Source: an uncultured Desulfobacterales bacterium
Lineage (GTDB): Bacteria; Desulfobacterota; Desulfobacteria; Desulfobacterales; JAFDCJ01
Assembly: GCA_945787595.1 (NCBI GenBank)
Contig: CALZJV010000427.1
Coordinates: 1 to 7,946 of the forward strand
DNA: 7,946 nucleotides
Direction: 5' to 3'
The notes beneath the pieces were generated by a model that saw nothing but the letters and a program-made list of their open reading frames with translations, ran no database searches and was not told the origin of the DNA. Positions 1 to 7,946 of this stretch are shown in pieces (position 1 is the first letter of the stretch; each line of letters begins with the position of its first letter). Made by a program: the position numbers and the translations under genes.

Positions 1-151
1 TGAGCTCTTCTATCAGGGGAAGGACCTTCCAGCGATCGCCTTCATTTAACTGGCGGTAATATTCCCTCTCATTGGGATAGATATTCGTATCCATAAATGC
101 TTTGAGCCGTTGCTGCAGATCCCTGGTTTTATCTGAAAATTCAAAAAACAT
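1..151 (-). CDS. Acyl-CoA dehydrogenase, N-terminal fragment (cut by window edge)
   Basis: The reverse strand reads ATG at 151-149 and stays open for 50 codons to the window edge. The peptide begins [20 protein letters not shown] and continues with a YPNE...YY motif and an EGDRW segment. I recognise this as the N-terminal helical region of a flavin-dependent acyl-CoA dehydrogenase, of the type related to the ACAD10/11 group. These soluble enzymes oxidise acyl-CoA thioesters to enoyl-CoA using FAD and pass electrons to electron-transfer flavoprotein in fatty-acid or related acid degradation. The start is supported by AAGGAGG (157-163 on the plus strand, read in reverse) 5 nt upstream of the ATG. 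The catalytic base and FAD-binding regions lie outside the window, so chain-length specificity cannot be judged. It is divergent from the chaperone cluster and probably unrelated to it. The identification is from memory of the family N-terminus, not a search. Confidence 0.82.
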
Positions 152-170
152 GGACGCCTCCTTTTGATTG

Positions 171-198
171 AAATTGAGTTGTTACTCAATTTTGTCAA
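171..198 (-). promoter_or_regulatory. Promoter with overlapping palindromic operator for the acyl-CoA dehydrogenase
   Basis: Read on the minus strand, a perfect TTGACA (198-193) is followed immediately by a perfect inverted repeat, AAATTGAGT-AACA-ACTCAATTT (192-171). The repeat fills the place where the spacer and -10 of a sigma-70 promoter would lie; the -10 itself is poor (AATTTC or CAATTT). An exact 9-bp dyad inside the core promoter, about 20 bp upstream of the start codon, is the expected architecture for a dimeric repressor that blocks RNA polymerase. TetR-family regulators commonly control acyl-CoA dehydrogenase genes with sites of this size, so a TetR-type repressor is the best guess. 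No regulator gene is in view. Confidence 0.6.
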
Positions 199-348
199 TG
201 CTCTCCACCGTAACTTTAGATATTACTTACCAGAAACTATCTGAATCCTTCAAGTATTTTCGCATATCACATCTTTGAACCGCTGAATTCATGCCAACCG
301 GAACATCAACCTCGTATGAAACTACACAAAATGGCACGGTTTCTTGAT

Positions 349-580
349 GATTAAACTGGCCGCTTTGGCATCCGGGCTAAACAGCGAACCGCAGAATGTC
401 GAATAACGAATATCGAATGCCGAAGGATGGAATCGCTTCGCGAAATCTTTTTTATAACAGAGAGAATACATTCATTCGCCGTTCGATGTTGGACGTTCGA
501 TGCTTACAGTCCGCCTTGGAGGATTCGACGTTCATTAGTTTCTTTCTCGATTAAACTAGCCGCTTTTCAGTCCGGCGGCT
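349..580. repeat. Inverted pair of short-repeat arrays bracketed by 200-bp-spaced direct repeats
   Basis: The divergent spacer (152-793) holds no convincing gene. A direct repeat, GATTAAACTNGCCGCT, occurs at 349-364 and 549-564 with one mismatch, exactly 200 bp apart; similarity continues loosely to about 378 and 580 (TCCGG...GCT). Between the copies lie AT/CG-patterned short repeats: 394-419 is built of GAAT/CGAATA-type units and 469-502 of CATTCG/GTTCGATG units. The second is roughly the reverse complement of the first, with a further TTCGACGTTC at 524-533. A small hairpin, CGAAG (421-425) with CTTCG (436-440), sits in the middle. The block resembles a miniature, non-coding, inverted-repeat element. 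I see no target-site duplication or transposase. Confidence 0.5.
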
Positions 581-642
581 GAGTTGCACCTTGAACCCTG
601 ATATGGTAACAAAAAATGTTTTTCCATATTATCCGTACCTTA

Positions 643-709
643 TTAAAATACACTATATATTGTGCTTATAATGCTCTTGACATACAATTTCTTTTCAGCC
701 ATGTATGGC
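643..709 (+). promoter_or_regulatory. Candidate promoters of the chaperone cluster, one sigma-32-like
   Basis: Two overlapping candidates are visible. The first is sigma-70-like: TATAAT at 667-672, preceded after 18 bp by the weak -35 TTAAAA (643-648). The second is CTTGACA (676-682), a 14-bp spacer, then AGCCATGT (697-704). This matches the E. coli heat-shock consensus CTTGAAA-N13-15-CCCCATNT at 6 of 7 and 6 of 8 positions with correct spacing. The same TTGACA could also serve a sigma-70 promoter, but no good TATAAT lies 16-18 bp downstream. A palindrome GCCAT-GT-ATGGC (698-709) overlies the putative heat-shock -10. The leader to the ATG at 794 would be about 80 nt. No CIRCE element was seen. 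Whether the host's sigma-32 uses the E. coli consensus is assumed. Confidence 0.42.
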
Positions 710-793
710 AGATCTAAACATAGGTTGAGCGGTTTGGGGTTCAACGTTCCGGATTGAAAAAGCTTACACAGCTCATATCAAAGGGATTCTGTA

Positions 794-3706
794 ATGTCAT
801 CGAGAAAAAAGAGCCGCAAAAAACGTAAAACATTTAACCACCGCGTATCCGCTGGAACACATAAGCGGAATGGCGCGATTGATGATACCAGCCGTCTGAC
901 TCCAGGTAAATTTCAGTCTACATCCTCCGGTTTCGCACACGAGGTTAACCGGTTGATATCCAAAGATAAAATCAAAGCAGCGGTCAGCAGGGCCAAATTT
1001 CATCACAAACGTCTGGGTACGGCGGAATCTGAAATGGTTCTGGTGGATGCGTATGTAGCTCGAATCCGTGAAATGATGGACAGAGGCTTCACCGTTGAGG
1101 CCAAAACATTGCTGAAATTGGTTCGGGGGCGATATAATTGCCCAGATCATCGCTTAACTGAATTAAATGCCGTCATTTCCCTCCGAGAGGGAAGGATAGA
1201 CGAACTGGTTTGGTCTCTTGAGAATCCCGGTTTGCCACAGGAACAGCGTGCAGCCATAGAAAAAATAATCACCAATGAGCTGGTTGATCTCAGCCTGTTG
1301 GCTCGGTGTGAAACTCTACCTTCCGGCCACCCACTGAAAACCGCCGCGCTGGCGACTGCGGAAGCGTTTGCAAGGGTGACATCCGGTTTTGTCAGGGATG
1401 AGGAAGTCGCCTTGCCGGCTGTCTCGCGCCGGAGTCCGCTGGCACCGTGGAAAATACTTATCAGGGCGATTGCCTCTTTTTATCGCCATGACGATGAAAT
1501 CTGCGAGAAGTATCTGGATGCGGTTGATCCCGAATCAGCGCCGGGACGTCTTGTGCCTTTACTCCGTGAGCTGATTGCAGGCCAATTGGAGGTCGGCTTC
1601 GATAAAAACTCAGCCCTTCTGGCTGAAAAAGTCGTTGGAAACAATAAAACGACCCAGGATGCCTTGCAAAGGCTTGACGCCGTGCTGGCCGCGAACAAAC
1701 CGCGTAAGCTCTTTAAGGCAGTTCGCAAGGCCGTCGATGTCTGTGAGCAGTCCTGCCCCGAACTTCTTGATAAACTCAAGCAGCATGCTTCCATTCGATC
1801 CTGGATGCTCGACGTTGATGCCGAAGATGTAAACAGGGCCCTGGGAGGACCTTCGCTGAAAAACGCCTATTTCTGGCTATTGCATGCCCGGGCGGCAGAC
1901 ATAAAGGGGAAATATCTATGGGCATGTGCGCTGTTGGAAGAGTTTCGCAAGCACGTTCTTCACGAGGGATGGTTCTCCGAAAAAAGCATAGAGGTTTCGG
2001 TGATCTATCTCTACATGGCGGATTTGTTGGGGAGGCTGCCGGCAGAGGACTTTGAATGGCTGCAGTCCAGATTTAAAAGAGAATTCACAGGATTCGAATC
2101 TTACTATCACGGACAGCCGGAGTCTGTCCTAGAAGCCCTTCGCGAAGATAACCCAAGTGCCGTGGATATGTATTTTCTTTATCCCGCACGTCTGTACAGG
2201 CTGGCCAGCGAGATCGACCCCGCTGCTGATACATTCCGGCAATGGCTGGAGTGGACTGAAAATTACTCTTCGCATTGGAAGCATTCCGATGCGGTGGCCA
2301 CCGCCTGGCATGCAGCGATCCCGGATGATACGCGGCCGCTGCTATATTTAATGAAATCGGCCGAGAATAGAAACGCTTTTAAAAAGGCCCTGGGCTATTT
2401 AGAGAAGGCCGAACGTCTTGACGGATTGAATCCGGATGTGAAAAAAGCAAGACTGCGTTTACTGGCGGCAACTGCCATCCGTCATCTGAAACAAAAAAAG
2501 ACCCATTTGGCCCAAAAAGATTTTACTGAAATAGAGGCTTTGCCTCAGTTCGGTGAGGGGGATCGTCCTGCTTTCCTGGTGGCATTGAAATCCGTATGTG
2601 CGGTGATTGACGGTCAGAAATCCCAATTAAACCGTTTGAACGATGAGCTGATTACCCTGCTTGAATCTCCAGTGACAGCCAAGGTGGTTATGCAAGGATT
2701 GCTGCGGGCATGCGGCCTCTCCGACCGGCAAATTAATTTGCCCGCACATACCAAAGCTCCGATGACGCGTGATGATCTATCGATCGTATTGGCGCGAGGC
2801 TGTCAACTTGGCAATGACATGGGTATTCCAATTACGATTCCGTTGGAGTATGAAAAAAAATTAAGGAATGTTTTTACCGCTGAAGACAGCTCGCATGATA
2901 TTGCCACCATCAGGGTTATTGCTGAAACCGCCTTACGAAATAAATATTTTGAATTGGCGTATGCGGCGGCGGGAGTCGGTTTGGTGAAGCAAGGAGCCTC
3001 AACCGCAAGGTTTTTGCTTTTACGCGCTCGATCATTACCGACATGGGAGATAGAGCGGAAGGATGATTGCCTTACGGCGGCCATCGAGCTTGCCCGACGC
3101 GAACGAGATTTGGATCTTATTGATGAGGCCATCGAATTGCGCCGGAACGGCAATAGAATGCCGTTCGGGTTTTCATTATTCAACAGCATGATCGGTGAAG
3201 ACAAGCCATCCATGGATGCAGAAGAACTGAATGATGTCTTGGAGCTTGAAAAGGAGGCGCGCGAATACCCATCTCATTATATGTCGGATGATTTTTTTGG
3301 TGATTATGACGACGACGATGATGACGATGAGGAAAGCGATTGCCGCTATTGCGATGCCAAAAATTGTCGAGACCGGAAAGCCCCGTACCGGCCGGACGAA
3401 CTATATGCTGAAGAATTCGATGATGACGATGATATGGATGACTTTCCGGATTTTAATACCCTTCTGGATGATTTTCTACCTGATTTGCCGCCGGATTTGA
3501 TGTCACTTATCATGAAAGTGTTCGCAAAGCATGGCAGAAATGGGTCTTTTCCCGACCCGGATGAACTAGCGCGCAAAGACCCCTGGTTGGCGGATCAATT
3601 ACAACGAGAAATGCAAAAAGCCGAGGCTGACGGGACCCTGCCGGATTTGGGCCAGGATTGGTTTCCTGGTCGGCGATCAAGAAAAACGAAGCGCAAACGG
3701 CGCTAA
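794..3706 (+). CDS. Large helical-repeat (TPR-like) protein of an Hsp70 cluster, function unknown
   Basis: This 970-aa protein has no catalytic domain that I recognise. It starts at an ATG preceded by AAGGGA (781-786). The first 17 residues are strongly basic (MSSRKKSRKKRKTF). Residues about 50-820 are a succession of amphipathic helices with TPR/HEAT-like spacing, for example the ALGYLEKAERLDGLNPD segment. A segment at about 211-240, SPLAPWK followed by an aromatic and acidic stretch (FYRHDDE), looks like a conserved family core. Near the C-terminus are an acidic run at about 836-845, a cysteine cluster C850-x2-C853-x4-C858, and a second acidic run at 873-883. The last residues (about 960-970) are again very basic. 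No signal peptide or membrane segment is visible, so it is probably cytoplasmic. It lies 15 bp upstream of the J-like gene in the same direction, implying co-transcription and a role as scaffold, client adaptor or co-chaperone. That role is inference from context only. Confidence 0.8.
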   Translation: MSSRKKSRKKRKTFNHRVSAGTHKRNGAIDDTSRLTPGKFQSTSSGFAHEVNRLISKDKIKAAVSRAKFHHKRLGTAESEMVLVDAYVARIREMMDRGFTVEAKTLLKLVRGRYNCPDHRLTELNAVISLREGRIDELVWSLENPGLPQEQRAAIEKIITNELVDLSLLARCETLPSGHPLKTAALATAEAFARVTSGFVRDEEVALPAVSRRSPLAPWKILIRAIASFYRHDDEICEKYLDAVDPESAPGRLVPLLRELIAGQLEVGFDKNSALLAEKVVGNNKTTQDALQRLDAVLAANKPRKLFKAVRKAVDVCEQSCPELLDKLKQHASIRSWMLDVDAEDVNRALGGPSLKNAYFWLLHARAADIKGKYLWACALLEEFRKHVLHEGWFSEKSIEVSVIYLYMADLLGRLPAEDFEWLQSRFKREFTGFESYYHGQPESVLEALREDNPSAVDMYFLYPARLYRLASEIDPAADTFRQWLEWTENYSSHWKHSDAVATAWHAAIPDDTRPLLYLMKSAENRNAFKKALGYLEKAERLDGLNPDVKKARLRLLAATAIRHLKQKKTHLAQKDFTEIEALPQFGEGDRPAFLVALKSVCAVIDGQKSQLNRLNDELITLLESPVTAKVVMQGLLRACGLSDRQINLPAHTKAPMTRDDLSIVLARGCQLGNDMGIPITIPLEYEKKLRNVFTAEDSSHDIATIRVIAETALRNKYFELAYAAAGVGLVKQGASTARFLLLRARSLPTWEIERKDDCLTAAIELARRERDLDLIDEAIELRRNGNRMPFGFSLFNSMIGEDKPSMDAEELNDVLELEKEAREYPSHYMSDDFFGDYDDDDDDDEESDCRYCDAKNCRDRKAPYRPDELYAEEFDDDDDMDDFPDFNTLLDDFLPDLPPDLMSLIMKVFAKHGRNGSFPDPDELARKDPWLADQLQREMQKAEADGTLPDLGQDWFPGRRSRKTKRKRR

Positions 3707-3721
3707 AACGAGGGCCAATCG

Positions 3722-4039
3722 ATGGCGAAAAATTATGACTTACCTATATTGGACGAAGATCCCCAAACTATTCTCGGCGTGTCGCAAGATGCCGATGCAG
3801 GGGCAATTCGCTCGGCCTACCTGAACAAAATCAAAGAATACCCGCCGGAAAGGTGTCCGGAGGAATTTGAGCGTGTTCGAGATGCTTATAAAATATTGAG
3901 CGATCCGCGCCGCCGCGCGCGAGTTATGCTGCAATCGGCCAATCCTGAAGCGCCTTTGGTGACATTGCTGGATCATCAAAAGCAAGACAGACAATTTGTC
4001 GGGCCCGATGCATGGCTTGCGGCCATGCGGGAGAGGTGA
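3722..4039 (+). CDS. Small J-domain-like co-chaperone with degenerate HPD motif
   Basis: This 105-aa protein consists mainly of a J domain (about residues 12-68). It has the helix I signature DPQTILGVSQDADAG, helix II AIRSAYLNKIKEY, and helix III with the typical RVRDAYKILSDPRRR ending. J domains bind Hsp70 and trigger its ATPase through an invariant His-Pro-Asp between helices II and III. Here the aligned residues are P41-P42-E43 (context EYPPERCPEEF), and the loop before helix III is shorter than in DnaJ. There is no Gly/Phe region, zinc-finger domain or C-terminal client-binding domain; residues 69-105 are a short tail. The ATG has GAGGG (3710-3714) 7 nt upstream and follows the repeat-protein stop by 15 bp, so the two are probably translated from one mRNA. 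The helices and ending are well kept, so it looks like a functional specialised subfamily and not a decayed gene. Activity on the downstream Hsp70 is inferred. Confidence 0.85.
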   Translation: MAKNYDLPILDEDPQTILGVSQDADAGAIRSAYLNKIKEYPPERCPEEFERVRDAYKILSDPRRRARVMLQSANPEAPLVTLLDHQKQDRQFVGPDAWLAAMRER

Positions 4040-4046
4040 AATTGAG

Positions 4047-4179
4047 AAAATGAGCTAAAATTTAAAATGAACTAAAATGATCTAAAATTGTGGTATTCTG
4101 TCAATTTAAAAAACAGATAGAGCTTAGCGTTTCCTTAATTTTAGTCATTTTAGGCAATTTAGTTCACTTTAGGCATTCG
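4047..4179. repeat. AT-rich short-repeat arrays in inverted orientation
   Basis: The spacer between the J-like gene and grpE has no gene. Its left part carries three copies of AAAATGANCT (4047-4056, 4064-4073, 4074-4083) joined by AAAATTT/AAAATTG units. Its right part (4134-4179) carries the reverse-complement pattern (TTTTAGTCATTTTAGG, TTTAGTTCACTTTAGG). The two arms can pair imperfectly around a loop of roughly 43 nt, which itself holds TCTGT (4097-4101) and ACAGA (4113-4117). The transcript could form a long, weak, AU-rich hairpin, possibly attenuating read-through from the J-like gene. It is not a classical terminator. Similar arrays of other sequence occur in the two other long spacers of the window. 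Confidence 0.6.
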
Positions 4180-4258
4180 TTTATTCCGCTATGTCAGTCT
4201 GCTATAACAAGAGACTGAAGCAAAAATAAGTATGGCAAAGTAGAATTATTCACTTTAT

Positions 4259-4273
4259 GAGGGGACGCCATTG
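4259..4273 (+). promoter_or_regulatory. Ribosome binding site fixing a TTG start for grpE
   Basis: GAGGGG (4259-4264) stands 6 nt before TTG at 4271. An in-frame TAG at 4241 excludes longer forms, no ATG or GTG lies between it and 4271, and the next in-frame ATG is codon 107. The TTG start is therefore the best supported one. Confidence 0.7.
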
Positions 4274-5209
4274 GAATCAGCAGGTCAAAGTCCGCAGCTT
4301 GAGCTTTCGCATTTAAATGACCATTTTGCGGAAGCGAAAACAAAAGAAGCGCTCCGGGTGCTGATTTTACAGCGCTTTGCAAAATGGCTCGACGATGTTC
4401 TGGCTGAAGAAAAACCACTGGAAGGAGTTGCGGCTGAATTGCTCAGCGAGTTGTATGATGGAAGAGATTCCGATACCACCGGCCCGGCTGAAGGCACCTA
4501 TGACCTGCATTCAACCTGGTCCGCGCTGACGGCGCTCACTCAGGAGATTAAATTGCAGGGCCGAGCATTTAAACAGCTAAGTGACAAAATGGAACCCTTT
4601 GCGGGTCTGGATGCGTCAATTGACCGGCTCCTTGCAGCACACAGGGACGCACTCTCCGATGCGCGGCGCATTGCAGAAGAGGGTCGGACGGATCGCACCC
4701 AACGCGAATCTGAGTTGAAACGCGAGGCCCATGACCGTGTCCGGCGTGAACTCATCGGGATTATTATCGATATCCGGGACCGGTTGATCCTTGGACAGCG
4801 ATCAGCCCATGAGAGTCAGCGGAAACTAAATGAATACCGAAATTTGCGCCGGCTGGATAAATTCACCATCAGCAAATTTTTCTTTGGCAAAACGGCTGAT
4901 AAAAATCACATGTTAGAAATCGTCAATTCACTGAAAAAGGGTTACCGGATGGGTCTTGATCGTATTGACGAAGCTTTGCAGCAGCTTGGGGTAAGTGAAA
5001 TTATTTGTGAAGGCAAACCTTTTGATCCCCGCAAAATGAATGCCGTGGATGTCGAAGAAACCGCAGATGTGCCCGACGGGATCGTACTTGAAGTATATCG
5101 AACCGGATATATGATTGACACAGATGTTCTTCAGACGGCCCGGGTAAAAGTTGCCCGTGTGCCTGAGAAGGACATTAAATTGGGAGATTCGCCCCAGTTA
5201 GGCCCTTAG
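4271..5209 (+). CDS. grpE: GrpE-type nucleotide exchange factor, divergent, with N-terminal extension
   Basis: GrpE proteins act as dimers that open the Hsp70 nucleotide-binding domain to release ADP and let ATP rebind. At 312 aa this one is much longer than E. coli GrpE (about 197 aa). Residues 1-85 are an acidic helical extension without recognisable domain. Residues about 85-165 form a long charged helix compatible with the GrpE dimer coiled coil, followed by the segment ELIGIIIDIRDRL, which matches the region leading into the GrpE core. The C-terminal beta domain is clear: FDP at 251-253, then MNAV where classical GrpE has HEAI, VPDG at 267-270, VLEVYRTGY, and a closing ARVKVARV strand. 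A KFFFG-containing segment between coiled coil and beta domain looks family-specific. It lies between the J-like gene and the Hsp70, so it is presumably dedicated to that Hsp70 and separate from the housekeeping grpE. The symbol marks family only. Confidence 0.85.
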   Translation: MESAGQSPQLELSHLNDHFAEAKTKEALRVLILQRFAKWLDDVLAEEKPLEGVAAELLSELYDGRDSDTTGPAEGTYDLHSTWSALTALTQEIKLQGRAFKQLSDKMEPFAGLDASIDRLLAAHRDALSDARRIAEEGRTDRTQRESELKREAHDRVRRELIGIIIDIRDRLILGQRSAHESQRKLNEYRNLRRLDKFTISKFFFGKTADKNHMLEIVNSLKKGYRMGLDRIDEALQQLGVSEIICEGKPFDPRKMNAVDVEETADVPDGIVLEVYRTGYMIDTDVLQTARVKVARVPEKDIKLGDSPQLGP

Positions 5210-5216
5210 GGAATTT

Positions 5217-5240
5217 TTTCTGACAAGATGTTGTCAGAAA
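5217..5240. other. Perfect 9-bp hairpin just after grpE
   Basis: TTTCTGACA (5217-5225) and TGTCAGAAA (5232-5240) are exact reverse complements around a 6-nt loop, beginning 8 bp after the grpE stop. A T-run precedes the stem but no T-run follows it. On the plus strand it is therefore not a textbook intrinsic terminator, though it may protect the 3' end or weaken transcription. The stem is AT-rich and modest in strength. Confidence 0.5.
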
Positions 5241-5243
5241 CTG

Positions 5244-5323
5244 AAGGTTTCAGGTTTCAGGTGTCGGGTGTCAGGGAAAAGAGATGTTAGATACTGAAAC
5301 CTGACACCCGACACCTGAAACCT
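5244..5323. repeat. Perfect 24-bp inverted repeat made of heptad units
   Basis: The left arm (5252-5275) and right arm (5300-5323) are exact 24-bp reverse complements separated by 24 bp. Each arm is itself a run of 7-bp variants: on the left CAGGTTT, CAGGTGT, CGGGTGT and then CAGG, with an extra AAGGTTT at 5244-5250. Transcribed, it would form a strong GC-containing stem with no downstream U-run. A third, direct-orientation copy of the core lies at 5552-5568. The heptad period and multiple copies suggest an expanding intergenic repeat family and not a gene-specific operator. Confidence 0.8.
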
Positions 5324-5347
5324 ATATAAAATATCAGCGTGCTTGCT

Positions 5348-5510
5348 GCCCCGCAGGGGCCACTTTTTCCGAGCGTCCTTTCGGAAAAAGCTTACCATCT
5401 TTTCTTTGTGGCTTAGTGCCTGATTTATTAAAAGTAAAGATCCGGGTCCAGAGGGCCCGGCTTTGGTCCACCCCGGCTTCCGGCTCGTAGAGCCTAAGAG
5501 CCTATAGCTC
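5348..5510. other. Hairpin-rich non-coding block between grpE and hsp70
   Basis: Several perfect or near-perfect stems follow one another. GCCCC-gca-GGGGC is at 5348-5360. CTTTTTCCGA (5363-5372) pairs with TCGGAAAAAG (5381-5390), a 10-bp perfect stem with an 8-nt loop. CCGGG (5442-5446) pairs with CCCGG (5456-5460), GGCTC-gta-GAGCC is at 5482-5494, and GAGC-ctata-GCTC is at 5498-5510. GAGCCTA is also directly repeated at 5490-5496 and 5498-5504. No open reading frame with a ribosome binding site was found. It could be a structured leader of the hsp70 mRNA, a small RNA, or remnants of palindromic repeats. None of the stems matches an RNA family I can name. Confidence 0.45.
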
Positions 5511-5551
5511 GGAGAGAGGGGTGATATGGGTGATTACGTTTGCCAGCAGTG

Positions 5552-5577
5552 TTCAGGTGTCGGGTGTCTGGTGTCAG
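5552..5577 (+). repeat. Third copy of the heptad repeat
   Basis: Positions 5552-5568 (TTCAGGTGTCGGGTGTC) are identical to 17 bp within the left arm of the upstream inverted repeat and in the same orientation. The heptads continue as CTGGTGT and then CAG (to about 5577). It lies roughly 290 bp downstream of the first copy, so the hairpin-rich block is bracketed by repeat copies. Confidence 0.7.
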
Positions 5578-5635
5578 CAACCGAATTCGACCCGCTATCT
5601 CGGAATTTGATCTATGGCAGAGCCGATCACCTCTG

Positions 5636-5660
5636 ACCTGGCCCTGAGGACCAGGTTTTC
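5636..5660 (+). terminator. Weak terminator-like hairpin ahead of hsp70
   Basis: ACCTGG (5636-5641) pairs with CCAGGT (5651-5656) around a 9-nt loop and is followed by TTTTC and, shortly after, GATTTTG. The stem is short and the T-run only four bases. It could be a weak terminator or attenuator about 65 nt before the hsp70 start, or chance. Confidence 0.25.
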
Positions 5661-5721
5661 GATTTTGAATAAATAACAGGTAGATCCATCGAATTTTGGA
5701 AACGTGAACCGGAGGTCAACA

Positions 5722-7611
5722 ATGAACACGGATGACTGTATCATCGGTATTGATCTTGGAACCACCAACTCCGAGGTTGCTGCATTTATTGACGATAATG
5801 TGAAAATCATCGGAAGCGGAGAAACAAAAATTCTGCCGTCCTGCGTCGGGCTTTCGCAGACGGGTGAACTGCTTATCGGTGCACCTGCCAGAAACCAGCA
5901 ATTACTTTATCCCGAGCGCACCGTACGCAGCATCAAACGTAAAATGGGCAGTGATGAAACGGTGACCCTGGGTGAGCGAACGTTTACGCCGCCGGAAATA
6001 TCCGCATTTCTCCTGCGGGAACTGGCGCAGTGGGCCCAGAGGAAACTGGGTTACGCGGTGGGAAAAGCAGTCATTTCGGTACCGGCTTATTTTTCGGATG
6101 CTCAGCGCAACGCAACGCGTGAAGCCGGTAAGCTCGCGGGTCTGGAAGTTGTGCGGATACTCAATGAACCGACGGCTGCCAGTCTTGCTTACGGATACGG
6201 ATCGGATGAAAATCGAACGGTTATGATTTACGACCTTGGCGGAGGCACCTTCGACGTTTCGATTGTCACCATCGAAAAAAATGTTACCGAGGTGCTGGCA
6301 AGCCACGGCAATAATCGTCTGGGAGGAGACGATTTCGATCAGCTCCTGGTAGATCGTCTGGTGAATGAATTTCGTGATCAGCATGGCGTCGATCTCAACG
6401 ATAATCATCGCGTAGCCTTATCCCGTCTGTGGTGGACGGCCGAAGAAACCAAAAAGAAGCTCAGCCTTGAGCCGTTTGCCAAAATACGGGAAGAAGCGCT
6501 GGTTGACATCGACGGCAAGCCACTGCATCTCGAGACCGAGATATCACGGGAAGAATACGAGCAGATGATCGGCCCTCTGATCGAGTCCACGCTGGATAGT
6601 GTATCCAGGGCCATGGATATTGCCGCTAAAAAACCGGGTGATCTCGACGCTATTTTACTGGTCGGCGGATCGACTCGGATTCCTCTGGTGTCCCGCGTAT
6701 TGGAAGAACGGGCGGGCATTGTTCCGCGCCATGATATCCATCCGGACCTGTGCGTGGCCCTGGGCGCCGGGGTGCTTGCATCGCGGCTTTGCGGACATGG
6801 GGTAGACAGGGTACTGGTTGATGTCACACCCTATTCATTTGGCCCATCCTATCTGGGAGAATGCGGCGGTGTCCCTTACCAATATTGTTACCATCCGATT
6901 ATTCGATCCAACACGGCCCTGCCGGTGACACGAACGGATAAATACTATACTTCTTACCCATACCAGGAGGAGGTCGATATCGATATCTATCAGGGTGACG
7001 ACCCGGATGCGATGAAAAACATTCCGGTTGGACATTTTCGGGTAGAAGGGCTCAGGCCGACCAGAGAGTTGAACCCGGTTTTGTGTCGCATGAGCCTCGA
7101 TATTGACGGTATCCTGAAAGTGACCGCCATCGAAAAAGAGACCGGGAAAACAAAGCAGATTACGATCGATAATGCGCTTAAGCCCAAAAGTGATGCGGAG
7201 ATAGCTGCCGCCAGAGAGCATCTGGATGCGCTATTTGATGGGCGTAAAGCAGATCTTGAGGACACATTCAATGATCATGGGGACTTACAGCAGGAAAACG
7301 GGGAAAGCGATGACCATGGTGTGATTGAGGTTCCATTCCATACCATTCATGGAAGCCGGGGGATTCCGGCAGCTGGAGAAAGGGAAAGCAACGTATTGGA
7401 ATTCAATTCTTCATTGGTCAGGGCCCATCAGGATGCGAAGGCCCTCCTGGAGCGTTCACGGCGGTTGCTCGACCGCATGCACGCTGAGGACCAGGAAGAG
7501 GCCATCGATCTTCATGAAAAGATTGAATCCGCTATCGCTTCGCGGGATGTCAAAGAGGTGACCGGAGCCTGTGAAGAATTAAAGGAGCTTCTCTTTTTTG
7601 TAGGGAGTTGA
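5722..7611 (+). CDS. Hsp70-family molecular chaperone, divergent from housekeeping DnaK
   Basis: Hsp70 proteins use ATP-driven opening and closing to bind and release unfolded peptide segments. The 629-aa protein has an intact ATPase domain (about 1-363): phosphate-1 IGIDLGTTNS (8-17), the VPAYFSDAQRNATREAG and LNEPTAASLAYG signatures, phosphate-2 DLGGGTFDVS (171-180), and adenosine motif VGGSTRIP (314-321). The linker reads VLVDVTP (about 364-370). The substrate-binding beta domain departs from DnaK: YSFG replaces LSLG. A GVPYQYCYHP segment (383-392) seems inserted before IIRSNTALP, and tyrosines cluster at 408-414. The sheet ends in the recognisable DGILKVTAIEKETGK. The helical lid (about 500-629) has an acidic, glycine-containing interruption and ends FFVGS, without the EEVKD-like tail common in DnaK. 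ATG 5722 is chosen over GTG 5704 because GGAGGT (5711-5716) sits 5 nt before it. Its neighbours are a J-like protein, GrpE and a zinc ribbon, so this is a specialised, self-contained Hsp70 and not the housekeeping dnaK. Confidence 0.93.
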   Translation: MNTDDCIIGIDLGTTNSEVAAFIDDNVKIIGSGETKILPSCVGLSQTGELLIGAPARNQQLLYPERTVRSIKRKMGSDETVTLGERTFTPPEISAFLLRELAQWAQRKLGYAVGKAVISVPAYFSDAQRNATREAGKLAGLEVVRILNEPTAASLAYGYGSDENRTVMIYDLGGGTFDVSIVTIEKNVTEVLASHGNNRLGGDDFDQLLVDRLVNEFRDQHGVDLNDNHRVALSRLWWTAEETKKKLSLEPFAKIREEALVDIDGKPLHLETEISREEYEQMIGPLIESTLDSVSRAMDIAAKKPGDLDAILLVGGSTRIPLVSRVLEERAGIVPRHDIHPDLCVALGAGVLASRLCGHGVDRVLVDVTPYSFGPSYLGECGGVPYQYCYHPIIRSNTALPVTRTDKYYTSYPYQEEVDIDIYQGDDPDAMKNIPVGHFRVEGLRPTRELNPVLCRMSLDIDGILKVTAIEKETGKTKQITIDNALKPKSDAEIAAAREHLDALFDGRKADLEDTFNDHGDLQQENGESDDHGVIEVPFHTIHGSRGIPAAGERESNVLEFNSSLVRAHQDAKALLERSRRLLDRMHAEDQEEAIDLHEKIESAIASRDVKEVTGACEELKELLFFVGS

Positions 7612-7613
7612 TA

Positions 7614-7880
7614 ATGGATATTAAAGAATCTTTGCGCTGTCCGGTGTGCCGTGCCAAATTCAGGGGCACCCGAGAATGCTCACGGTGTGGCGCGGATCTC
7701 AGCAGTATCATGATGCTGTCGGCCAGAGCTCAACTTTACCGCGCAGACGCGAGAAAATCCATTTATGCACTCAATTTCGAAAAAGCCCGGGAACTTACCG
7801 CAGCGGCGCAAAAAGAACATGCAACCGAAACGGGCAGACGGCTTTTGCTGTTGACCTCATGGCTCAATGCGGAGCTGTAA
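7614..7880 (+). CDS. Small four-cysteine zinc-ribbon protein coupled to hsp70
   Basis: This 88-aa protein opens with a probable zinc ribbon: C9-P-V-C12 and C22-S-R-C25 flank a short FRGTRE loop, followed by GADL. The remainder (about 30-88) is helical, with a TPR-like look (ARKSIYALNFEKARELTAAAQ), and ends in a leucine-rich helix. No enzyme motif is present. The ATG lies two bases after the Hsp70 TGA with AGGGAG (7601-7606) inside the hsp70 end, so translational coupling is very likely. The first two in-frame codons of the longer reading (TTG at 7608) overlap the stop and are not needed. The tight link suggests an obligate accessory factor of the Hsp70, perhaps analogous to the zinc-binding and client-holding functions that classical DnaJ has and the upstream J-like protein lacks. 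That analogy is my inference; the cysteine spacing is directly seen. Confidence 0.8.
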   Translation: MDIKESLRCPVCRAKFRGTRECSRCGADLSSIMMLSARAQLYRADARKSIYALNFEKARELTAAAQKEHATETGRRLLLLTSWLNAEL

Positions 7881-7889
7881 TCCGATTCA

Positions 7890-7946
7890 ATGTATCTATT
7901 AGAACTTTACTATACCAACGCCCGCCTGAATCAAACCGGTAAATTT
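7890..7946 (+). CDS. Possible start of a further gene, running off the window
   Basis: An ATG at 7890 opens 19 codons (MYLLELYYTNARLNQTGKF) to the window end, in the same frame as the zinc-ribbon gene and 9 bp after its TAA. No Shine-Dalgarno sequence is close: the nearest GGAG (7871-7874) is 15 nt away. It may be the next gene of the cluster, or chance. Too little is visible to name a product. Confidence 0.2.
   Translation, partial: MYLLELYYTNARLNQTGKF

Follow-up and report, generated by a model that had tools for sequence, protein, structure and literature searches.

A conserved five-gene operon encoding an HscC-related Hsp70, a GrpE and a J-domain protein without the HPD motif

The closest described relatives of the locus reported here are the HscC chaperones, which in Escherichia coli and its relatives stand beside the J proteins DjlB and DjlC. 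The published signature of HscC includes an insertion in loop L1,2 and a deletion in the nucleotide-binding domain, both of which recur in the Hsp70 described below, and HscC has been suggested not to interact with GrpE (PMC8215388). In the structure of the DnaK-DnaJ complex, His33 of the J-domain HPD motif bonds the linker backbone at L391 of DnaK, and Asp35 bonds R167 and Q378 (PMC8215388). According to a 2026 review, HPD seems to tolerate replacement by HPE alone, other deviants are presumably nonfunctional, and whether other HPD deviations are accidental or selected "remains enigmatic" (PMC13254874). We analyzed a 7,946-nucleotide stretch of DNA from an uncultured Desulfobacterales bacterium (assembly GCA_945787595.1, contig CALZJV010000427.1, positions 1 to 7,946, here called the window), which encodes an Hsp70, a GrpE and a J-domain protein without HPD, together with a helical-repeat protein (REP) and a small zinc-ribbon protein (ZN). 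We consider it probable that the five genes make up a single accessory Hsp70 machine that belongs to the HscC lineage and is insulated from housekeeping DnaK and its partners.

The five-gene operon and its distribution

The genes all lie on the plus strand of the window between positions 794 and 7880, in the order REP, J, GrpE, Hsp70 and ZN, and the features discussed below are as follows.

794-3706, plus strand: REP, a TPR-like alpha-solenoid protein of 970 amino acids (aa)
3722-4039, plus strand: J-domain protein, 105 aa, with PPE in place of HPD (PF00226, E value 8.2e-11, 42.3 bits against a cut-off of 27.8; alignment with DnaJ)
3842-3850, plus strand: the PPE codons, equivalent of DnaJ H33-P34-D35 (alignment)
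4271-5209, plus strand: GrpE, 312 aa, with an extended N-terminal region; TTG start codon preceded by an AGGGG-type ribosome-binding site (PF01025, 3.7e-19, 69.5 bits against 25.8, match limited to residues 208-295)
5722-7611, plus strand: Hsp70, 629 aa from ATG, HscC-sister clade (PF00012, 1.8e-126, 423 bits against 20.6; trees)
6775-6777, plus strand: Leu of Hsp70 at the position of DnaK Q378, the contact of the J-domain Asp (alignment)
6808-6810, plus strand: Arg of Hsp70 at the position of DnaK V389 in the interdomain linker (alignment)
6856-6891, plus strand, limits approximate: region of an eight-residue insertion in loop L1,2 of the beta part of the substrate-binding domain (SBDbeta) (alignment)
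7261-7407, plus strand: mostly acidic stretch of low confidence that interrupts the Hsp70 lid (residues 514-562; predicted local distance difference test [pLDDT] score below 50)
7402-7605, plus strand: C-terminal three-helix bundle of Hsp70, with a conserved last helix of ELLFF type (pLDDT mostly 92-97)
7614-7880, plus strand: ZN, 88 aa from ATG, a CxxC...CxxC zinc ribbon followed by C-terminal TPR-like helices (family alignment)

A first-pass annotation, made from the letters of the window, had claimed that Hsp70, GrpE and a J-like protein are encoded together and tightly linked to two extra genes, a 970-aa helical-repeat protein and an 88-aa zinc ribbon. All three chaperone components pass their Pfam cut-offs, both extra genes are present and co-directional, and the gaps of 15 bp (REP to J) and 2 bp (Hsp70 to ZN) are as it gave them. 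REP and ZN match no Pfam family above cut-off.

The gene order is conserved in distant taxa. Nineteen aligned REP homologues served as the query for a scan of one genome per GTDB species, and 49 stretches fit the pattern, 37 of which encode a relative. The order REP-J-GrpE-Hsp70-ZN on one strand was recovered in 31 of these 37 loci with family profiles, of which those for J, GrpE, ZN and Hsp70 derive from these loci themselves; when the sequences of the window served as queries instead, 34 of the loci gave J, 33 GrpE, 34 Hsp70 and 32 ZN. Five of the remaining six loci end at a contig edge, and the sixth (L032) is without J and GrpE. By the phylum names written in the sequence records, which we used throughout, the 37 loci comprise 25 from Acidobacteriota, 3 from Planctomycetota, 2 from Thermodesulfobacteriota and one or two each from Hydrogenedentota, Rokubacteria, Sumerlaeota, "Deltaproteobacteria," "Proteobacteria" and an unplaced bacterium. 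Ten further loci add eight with the full order, one permuted (L088) and one that runs off its contig; L098, where REP is a fragment of 146 aa and GrpE matches weakly, was excluded from the order count. Carriers include the cultured Edaphobacter aggregans DSM 19364 (L019). A diverged version occurs on a Nostoc plasmid, where a TPR protein, a DnaJ-domain protein, GrpE, Hsp70 and a TPR protein follow in the same order, and related sets with broken genes are found on the Acaryochloris plasmids pMB01 and pMB03 (L072 and L073). The window REP has no match on the plasmids: the plasmid REP of the cyanobacteria has diverged beyond the reach of the REP profile and is linked to the family through synteny and through its J, GrpE and Hsp70. 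The suggestion that the order might recur in distant taxa is thus borne out across several phyla, and the neighbours are not a peculiarity of one genome.

Several loci have unusual layouts. In L088 (7236-13632) the order is Hsp70-ZN-REP-J-GrpE, as though the operon had been rotated. The REP start adjoins the Hsp70 end in L032 (8977-11516), through an internal deletion or an assembly join, and L031 (1-3846) has a tandem repetition of REP segments that is probably a misassembly. On pMB01 the Hsp70 lies in two reading frames, and on pMB03 the TPR gene is shortened; these Acaryochloris sets sit upstream of a gene with an RNB domain or a ribonuclease catalytic domain, and a third plasmid holds a similar Hsp70 match.

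Canonical DnaK was present in all 17 operon-bearing genomes searched (those of 17 of the 37 loci, picked by the analyst), with best matches of 802 to 924 bits, well above the operon Hsp70. This excludes, in these 17 relatives, that the operon Hsp70 is the sole dnaK of its organism, and the conserved order together with the separate DnaK supports the earlier proposal of a self-contained accessory chaperone system standing alongside a housekeeping dnaK. Many operon-bearing genomes also hold a further Hsp70 type of about 600 to 665 aa, placed with DnaK or close to HscA (L055-L065), and the GrpE loop is shortened in 8 of 11 of these paralogues. In one genome, a 987-aa open frame with an Hsp70 domain (435 bits; L066, G013:C68) accompanies the operon.

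The distribution of the operon bears on the possibility that it is a conflict or antiphage module in which Hsp70, J, GrpE and TPR parts together act as a regulated switch, on the theme of the GAP1-N2 GTPase systems. REP is patchily distributed (3/297, 4/297 and 8/246 genomes of three phyla; these are lower bounds from sets that include the seed genomes, with some matches partial and at most three candidates scored per genome), there are plasmid copies in Nostoc and Acaryochloris, and HSP70, GrpE and DnaJ-TPR parts in GAP1-N2 systems provide a precedent (PMC7159879). However, no PADLOC model fits the five proteins save for one weak Hsp70 match of 16.5 bits, and Pfam and NCBIfam reveal no GTPase or effector domain in them. 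A conserved wider neighbourhood was likewise rejected: no family of flanking open reading frames extends beyond 6 of the 45 loci compared (by clustering; many flanks are short), and the five genes therefore look like the whole module. We regard the conflict explanation as quite unlikely. A phage origin was also rejected, as the pattern fit 28 stretches of viral contigs and no REP relative is encoded in any of them; among the PHROGs, J, GrpE and Hsp70 match mostly families of unknown function, and none was found for REP or ZN.

The intergenic gaps hold repeats. Inverted repeats of 24 to 30 nt at 5245-5323 and 5552-5577, between GrpE and Hsp70, include one perfectly complementary 24-nt pair and look like mobile palindromic repeats inserted into the operon, and a second set lies between J and GrpE (4063-4171; arms of 16 to 17 nt, 81 to 88% complementary). 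No CIRCE heat-shock operator was found at up to three mismatches, and no RNA family at the gathering threshold.

Lineage of the Hsp70 and the J protein beside it

The window Hsp70 falls below the cut-offs of both curated DnaK models, scoring 458.4 against 648 for PRK00290 and 449.9 against 822.6 for TIGR02350, and is also under the curated HscA cut-off (NCBIfam). In a tree of 83 sequences, 42 operon Hsp70s, the cyanobacterial ones included, form a single clade (Shimodaira-Hasegawa-like approximate likelihood ratio test [SH-aLRT], 99), which groups with HscC (SH-aLRT, 97) apart from DnaK and HscA. When the longest branch and five near-duplicates were taken out, the operon Hsp70s and the five HscC sequences remained together on one side of a branch with a support of 99.9. 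Hsp70 pieces shorter than 480 aa were left out of the 83-sequence tree and of the signature alignment, and an 847-aa L066 paralogue with Tyr at Q378 was dropped from both. On this phylogenetic evidence, the operon Hsp70s are a sister clade of HscC, beside it and not inside it; this lineage, the gene order and the family assignments of J, GrpE and Hsp70 are established at the level of sequence comparison.

The signature alignment agrees with this placement. Loop L1,2 is eight residues longer in 42/42 operon Hsp70s and four to eight residues longer in 5/5 HscC, with no insertion in the 23 DnaK-group, 11 paralogue and 2 HscA rows. A deletion in the nucleotide-binding domain (NBD; DnaK 76-101) leaves 17 to 18 residues between DnaK positions 70 and 110 in 42/42 operon rows and 17 in 5/5 HscC; it is not diagnostic of HscC because 5 of the 23 DnaK-group rows have it as well. 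The GrpE-binding loop separates the two sister groups, being of DnaK length (19 to 20 residues) in 38/40 operon and 2/2 cyanobacterial rows and 13 residues long in 5/5 HscC. At 629 aa the window Hsp70 also lies outside the HscC range of 550 to 580 aa (family median of about 612 aa over 42 matches, fragments included).

An AlphaFold2 model of the Hsp70 (pLDDT, 83.7; predicted template modelling score, 0.64) has normal NBD and SBDbeta folds and a lid broken by low-confidence residues 514-562, followed by a confident three-helix bundle with no disordered C-terminal tail. The lid-splitting stretch has a median of 27 residues and a median net charge of -8 across 37 relatives, is mostly acidic and is nearly absent in L089 and L094. 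With the eight-residue L1,2 insertion, the predicted split lid and the missing tail, the altered substrate-binding domain claimed by the first-pass annotation takes a definite form. An ELLFF-type motif closes 35 of 40 Hsp70 rows; an EEVD-like tail for TPR proteins was considered and dropped, because ELLFF lies in the last helix of the confident bundle rather than in a free tail.

Simple duplication of the housekeeping dnaK-dnaJ-grpE genes, without any special partners, was already disfavoured and is very improbable. DnaK duplication is common in Acidobacteria (PMC11019930), and the fold and catalytic residues of the operon Hsp70 are DnaK-like; but a duplicate would not be expected to fall under both DnaK equivalog cut-offs or to group with HscC rather than DnaK, and it leaves aside that J and GrpE are divergent too and that two further conserved genes belong to the set.

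The J protein departs from DnaJ at the motif itself. In an ungapped alignment, H33-P34-D35 of DnaJ corresponds to P-P-E in the window, and the loop between helices II and III is six residues shorter. The claim that this protein lacks HPD is accordingly refined to a change of His33 to Pro, with the Pro and the acidic residue kept. Across 47 operon J rows the motif reads PPD in 32, PPE in 10, PAH in 2 (both cyanobacterial), GPD in 1 and SPE in 1, one row being truncated, so that the His is absent in 46/46 readable rows and PP(D/E) is present in 42. A search with the window J recovered 211 homologues at an E value of 1e-8, the best 120 of which comprise 113 with PPE, 7 with PPD (one scored by eye) and none with HPD. 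As a control, 93 J-domain matches were collected from the 17 genomes; 17 lie on operon contigs and were assigned as operon J by contig, and 71 of the other 76 have HPD (30/30 best-scoring and 41/46), and none of the 76 reads PP(D/E).

Residues facing the J domain have changed in most of the operon Hsp70s as well. R167, L391, D393 and P419 are kept in 40/40 noncyanobacterial operon Hsp70s, while Q378 is replaced by Leu or Met in 36/40, V389 of the linker by Arg, Lys or His in 37/40 and T417 by Pro in 35/40. Q378 is retained in 23/23 DnaK-group, 11 paralogue, 2 HscA and 5/5 HscC rows. In both cyanobacterial systems, the J protein has His at Asp35 and the Hsp70 has Gln at R167. Such paired changes fit a co-evolution of trigger and engine.

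The J proteins encoded beside HscC share the six-residue-shorter loop and read HPE in E. coli DjlC and RPD in four others. Those of Rahnella, Rhizobium and Duffyella (L074, L075 and L104) have RPD, unlike the HPE that has been called the only tolerated change.

These data also frame the possibility that the operon protein is a pseudo-J of the Pam16 type, which would be unable to trigger hydrolysis and would act on the Hsp70 as a tether or restraint, leaving the cycle to be driven by the cell's ordinary DnaJ proteins with HPD. The published view that deviants other than HPE are presumably nonfunctional (PMC13254874) would fit such a role, and the 71 HPD-bearing matches in the checked genomes could supply the drivers. 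On the other hand, the Pro and the acidic position are kept in 44/46 readable rows, which would be needless in a dead domain; the J genes that accompany HscC depart from HPD as well, and stimulation of HscC by DjlC has been reported (PMC8215388); a designed J-domain analogue works without HPD (PMC13254874); and most operon Hsp70s are changed on the facing side, where a standard DnaJ may fit worse. We consider a pseudo-J unlikely.

GrpE, REP and ZN in a proposed chaperone cycle

The GrpE has 312 aa against 197 in E. coli, about half again the usual length as first described, and the family median is about 261 aa (37 loci, heuristic starts). A search recovered 377 homologues, several of the closest likewise 312 aa long, and the protein is under the cut-off of all 25 NCBIfam GrpE equivalog models among the matches listed.

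REP has helical repeats over residues 46-786, preceded by a basic, disordered segment (residues 1-44) and followed by an acidic, Cys-containing tail with a basic C-terminus. The window protein is under the Pfam TPR cut-off, which its distant homologues L089 and L091 and the syntenic Nostoc protein exceed, and its predicted fold agrees with a TPR solenoid (fold model and Foldseek). No named closest fold stands out, and the generic matches are no evidence of a new fold. The Nostoc gene at the place of ZN combines CxxC pairs with a Pfam TPR. The charged REP ends could point to a ribosome- or RNA-associated folding machine, in which they would dock on ribosomes or RNA while the Hsp70 acted on nascent chains. 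The first 30 residues carry a net charge of at least +3 in 53 of 78 near-full-length homologues and the last 15 do so in 49 of 78 (3 of 81 having been dropped as shorter), and RNA-linked solenoids, Ski3 among them, are found by Foldseek. Yet the Foldseek matches are generic TPR solenoids, the charged ends are missing in about a third of the homologues, and no RNA-binding domain was found in the window proteins with Pfam or NCBIfam, which makes this explanation an unlikely one.

We propose, tentatively, that an orthogonal Hsp70 machine is widespread and that its non-HPD J protein (PPD or PPE, and PAH in cyanobacteria) may be the active trigger of an HscC-lineage Hsp70 which co-evolved with it and still makes use of GrpE, client choice having moved from the J protein to the TPR solenoid and the zinc-ribbon/TPR adaptor. 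The PP(D/E) J protein would trigger ATP hydrolysis in the operon Hsp70 and not in DnaK, a specificity suggested by the accompanying changes of linker V389 to Arg and of pocket Q378 to Leu or Met, and the housekeeping DnaJ-DnaK pair would not be engaged. The long GrpE would then eject ADP from the operon Hsp70 and reset the cycle. Client selection or localization might be supplied by REP and ZN, which are candidate client adaptors because the minimal J has no recognized client-binding domain, and a tethered lid with an enlarged L1,2 loop would be suited to clients that are bulky or restricted in range. The retention of an exchange factor, unlike in HscC, suggests multiple clients or a regulated cycle, by an argument made in PMC8215388. 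From these features we infer insulation from DnaK, delivery of clients and a client range of the operon's own.

Several observations weigh against this proposal. The trees are quick and without bootstrap, and the HscC branches are long. The GrpE loop is shorter (15 residues) in L090 and L091. Q378 is kept in 4/40 operon Hsp70s (L037 and the deep-branching L089, L090 and L091), and L089-L091 have Ser at position 389; as their J proteins read PPE or SPE, the His was lost there without the pocket and linker changes, so that the changes are not strictly paired, and the cyanobacterial change at R167 and Asp35 may be one event in two related systems. Loss of HPD is not unique to the operon, since 5 of the 76 other J-domain matches are without it and deviate in other ways. 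A profile of the operon J scores HscC-type partners at 29.5 to 38.5 bits and ordinary J domains at 22.3 to 45.8, and, the former being no better, loop length is left as the one feature pointing to descent from a DjlC-like ancestor. Finally, PPD or PPE might work with DnaK after all.

Comparison with described Hsp70 systems

HscC with DjlB and DjlC is the nearest described system. The Hsp70s are sister clades that share the NBD deletion and the L1,2 insertion, the J proteins are off HPD and have the six-residue-shorter loop, and lid helix B is disturbed in both (in the AlphaFold2 model for the operon, and as described in PMC8215388 for HscC). HscC differs in that the GrpE loop is missing and has been suggested to work without GrpE (PMC8215388), whereas the operon co-encodes one, and DjlC, with 483 aa against 105 aa for the operon J, is tail-anchored (PMC8215388). 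Four annotated hscC neighbourhoods that we compared hold no GrpE, TPR solenoid or zinc ribbon; the earlier claim that the composition differs from hscC neighbourhoods holds for these four, yet the Hsp70 itself is a sister of HscC. Among the organisms with all three Hsp70s in a published tree are one from the Acidobacteria and one from the Planctomycetes (PMC8215388), and the HscC of these two may belong to the operon clade.

The other Hsp70 systems are less close. DnaK-DnaJ-GrpE has the same three-part logic, and the noncyanobacterial operon Hsp70s keep R167, L391, D393 and P419, but the operon is without HPD, has another lid and linker, coexists with DnaK and adds two conserved proteins. HscA-HscB is likewise a dedicated Hsp70/J pair; the operon module is without Fe-S genes and forms a separate clade, and the two HscA rows have a shortened GrpE loop. 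In Myxococcus xanthus, the accessory Hsp70 SglK (MXAN_6671) stands beside a second GrpE, GrpS, by locus tag (Mxan_6672) (PMC8265645 and PMC10313047). SglK contains the PRK00290 domain and enabled a dnaK mutant of E. coli to grow again (PMC8265645), whereas the window Hsp70 is under the PRK00290 cut-off; SglK being a PRK00290 DnaK by the published domain call, SglK/GrpS was rejected as the same system. GAP1-N2 GTPase conflict systems bring similar parts together in one neighbourhood (PMC7159879), whereas the five genes are without a GTPase. Ruc (Rv0991c) is a small zinc-binding protein that promotes Hsp70 refolding (PMC7448276), a possible parallel to ZN, which differs in having TPR-like helices after its ribbon and in being encoded with its own Hsp70.

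The open-licence literature that we searched contains no description of the five-gene set. The operon represents a family in which a different conserved motif stands beside its own altered Hsp70 across several phyla, and the question of whether HPD deviations are accidental or selected therefore becomes directly testable. This makes it a natural test case for how J switches activate Hsp70 machines. An HscC-related line that keeps GrpE is relevant to the question of why HscA and HscC dispense with an exchange factor, and the arrangement suggests a way for one cell to run two Hsp70 machines without cross-talk. Set against the described systems, our verdict is that the operon is a real, conserved and self-contained variant of the HscC-type Hsp70 machine and not a new category of system, which its non-HPD trigger and retained GrpE lift above the routine.

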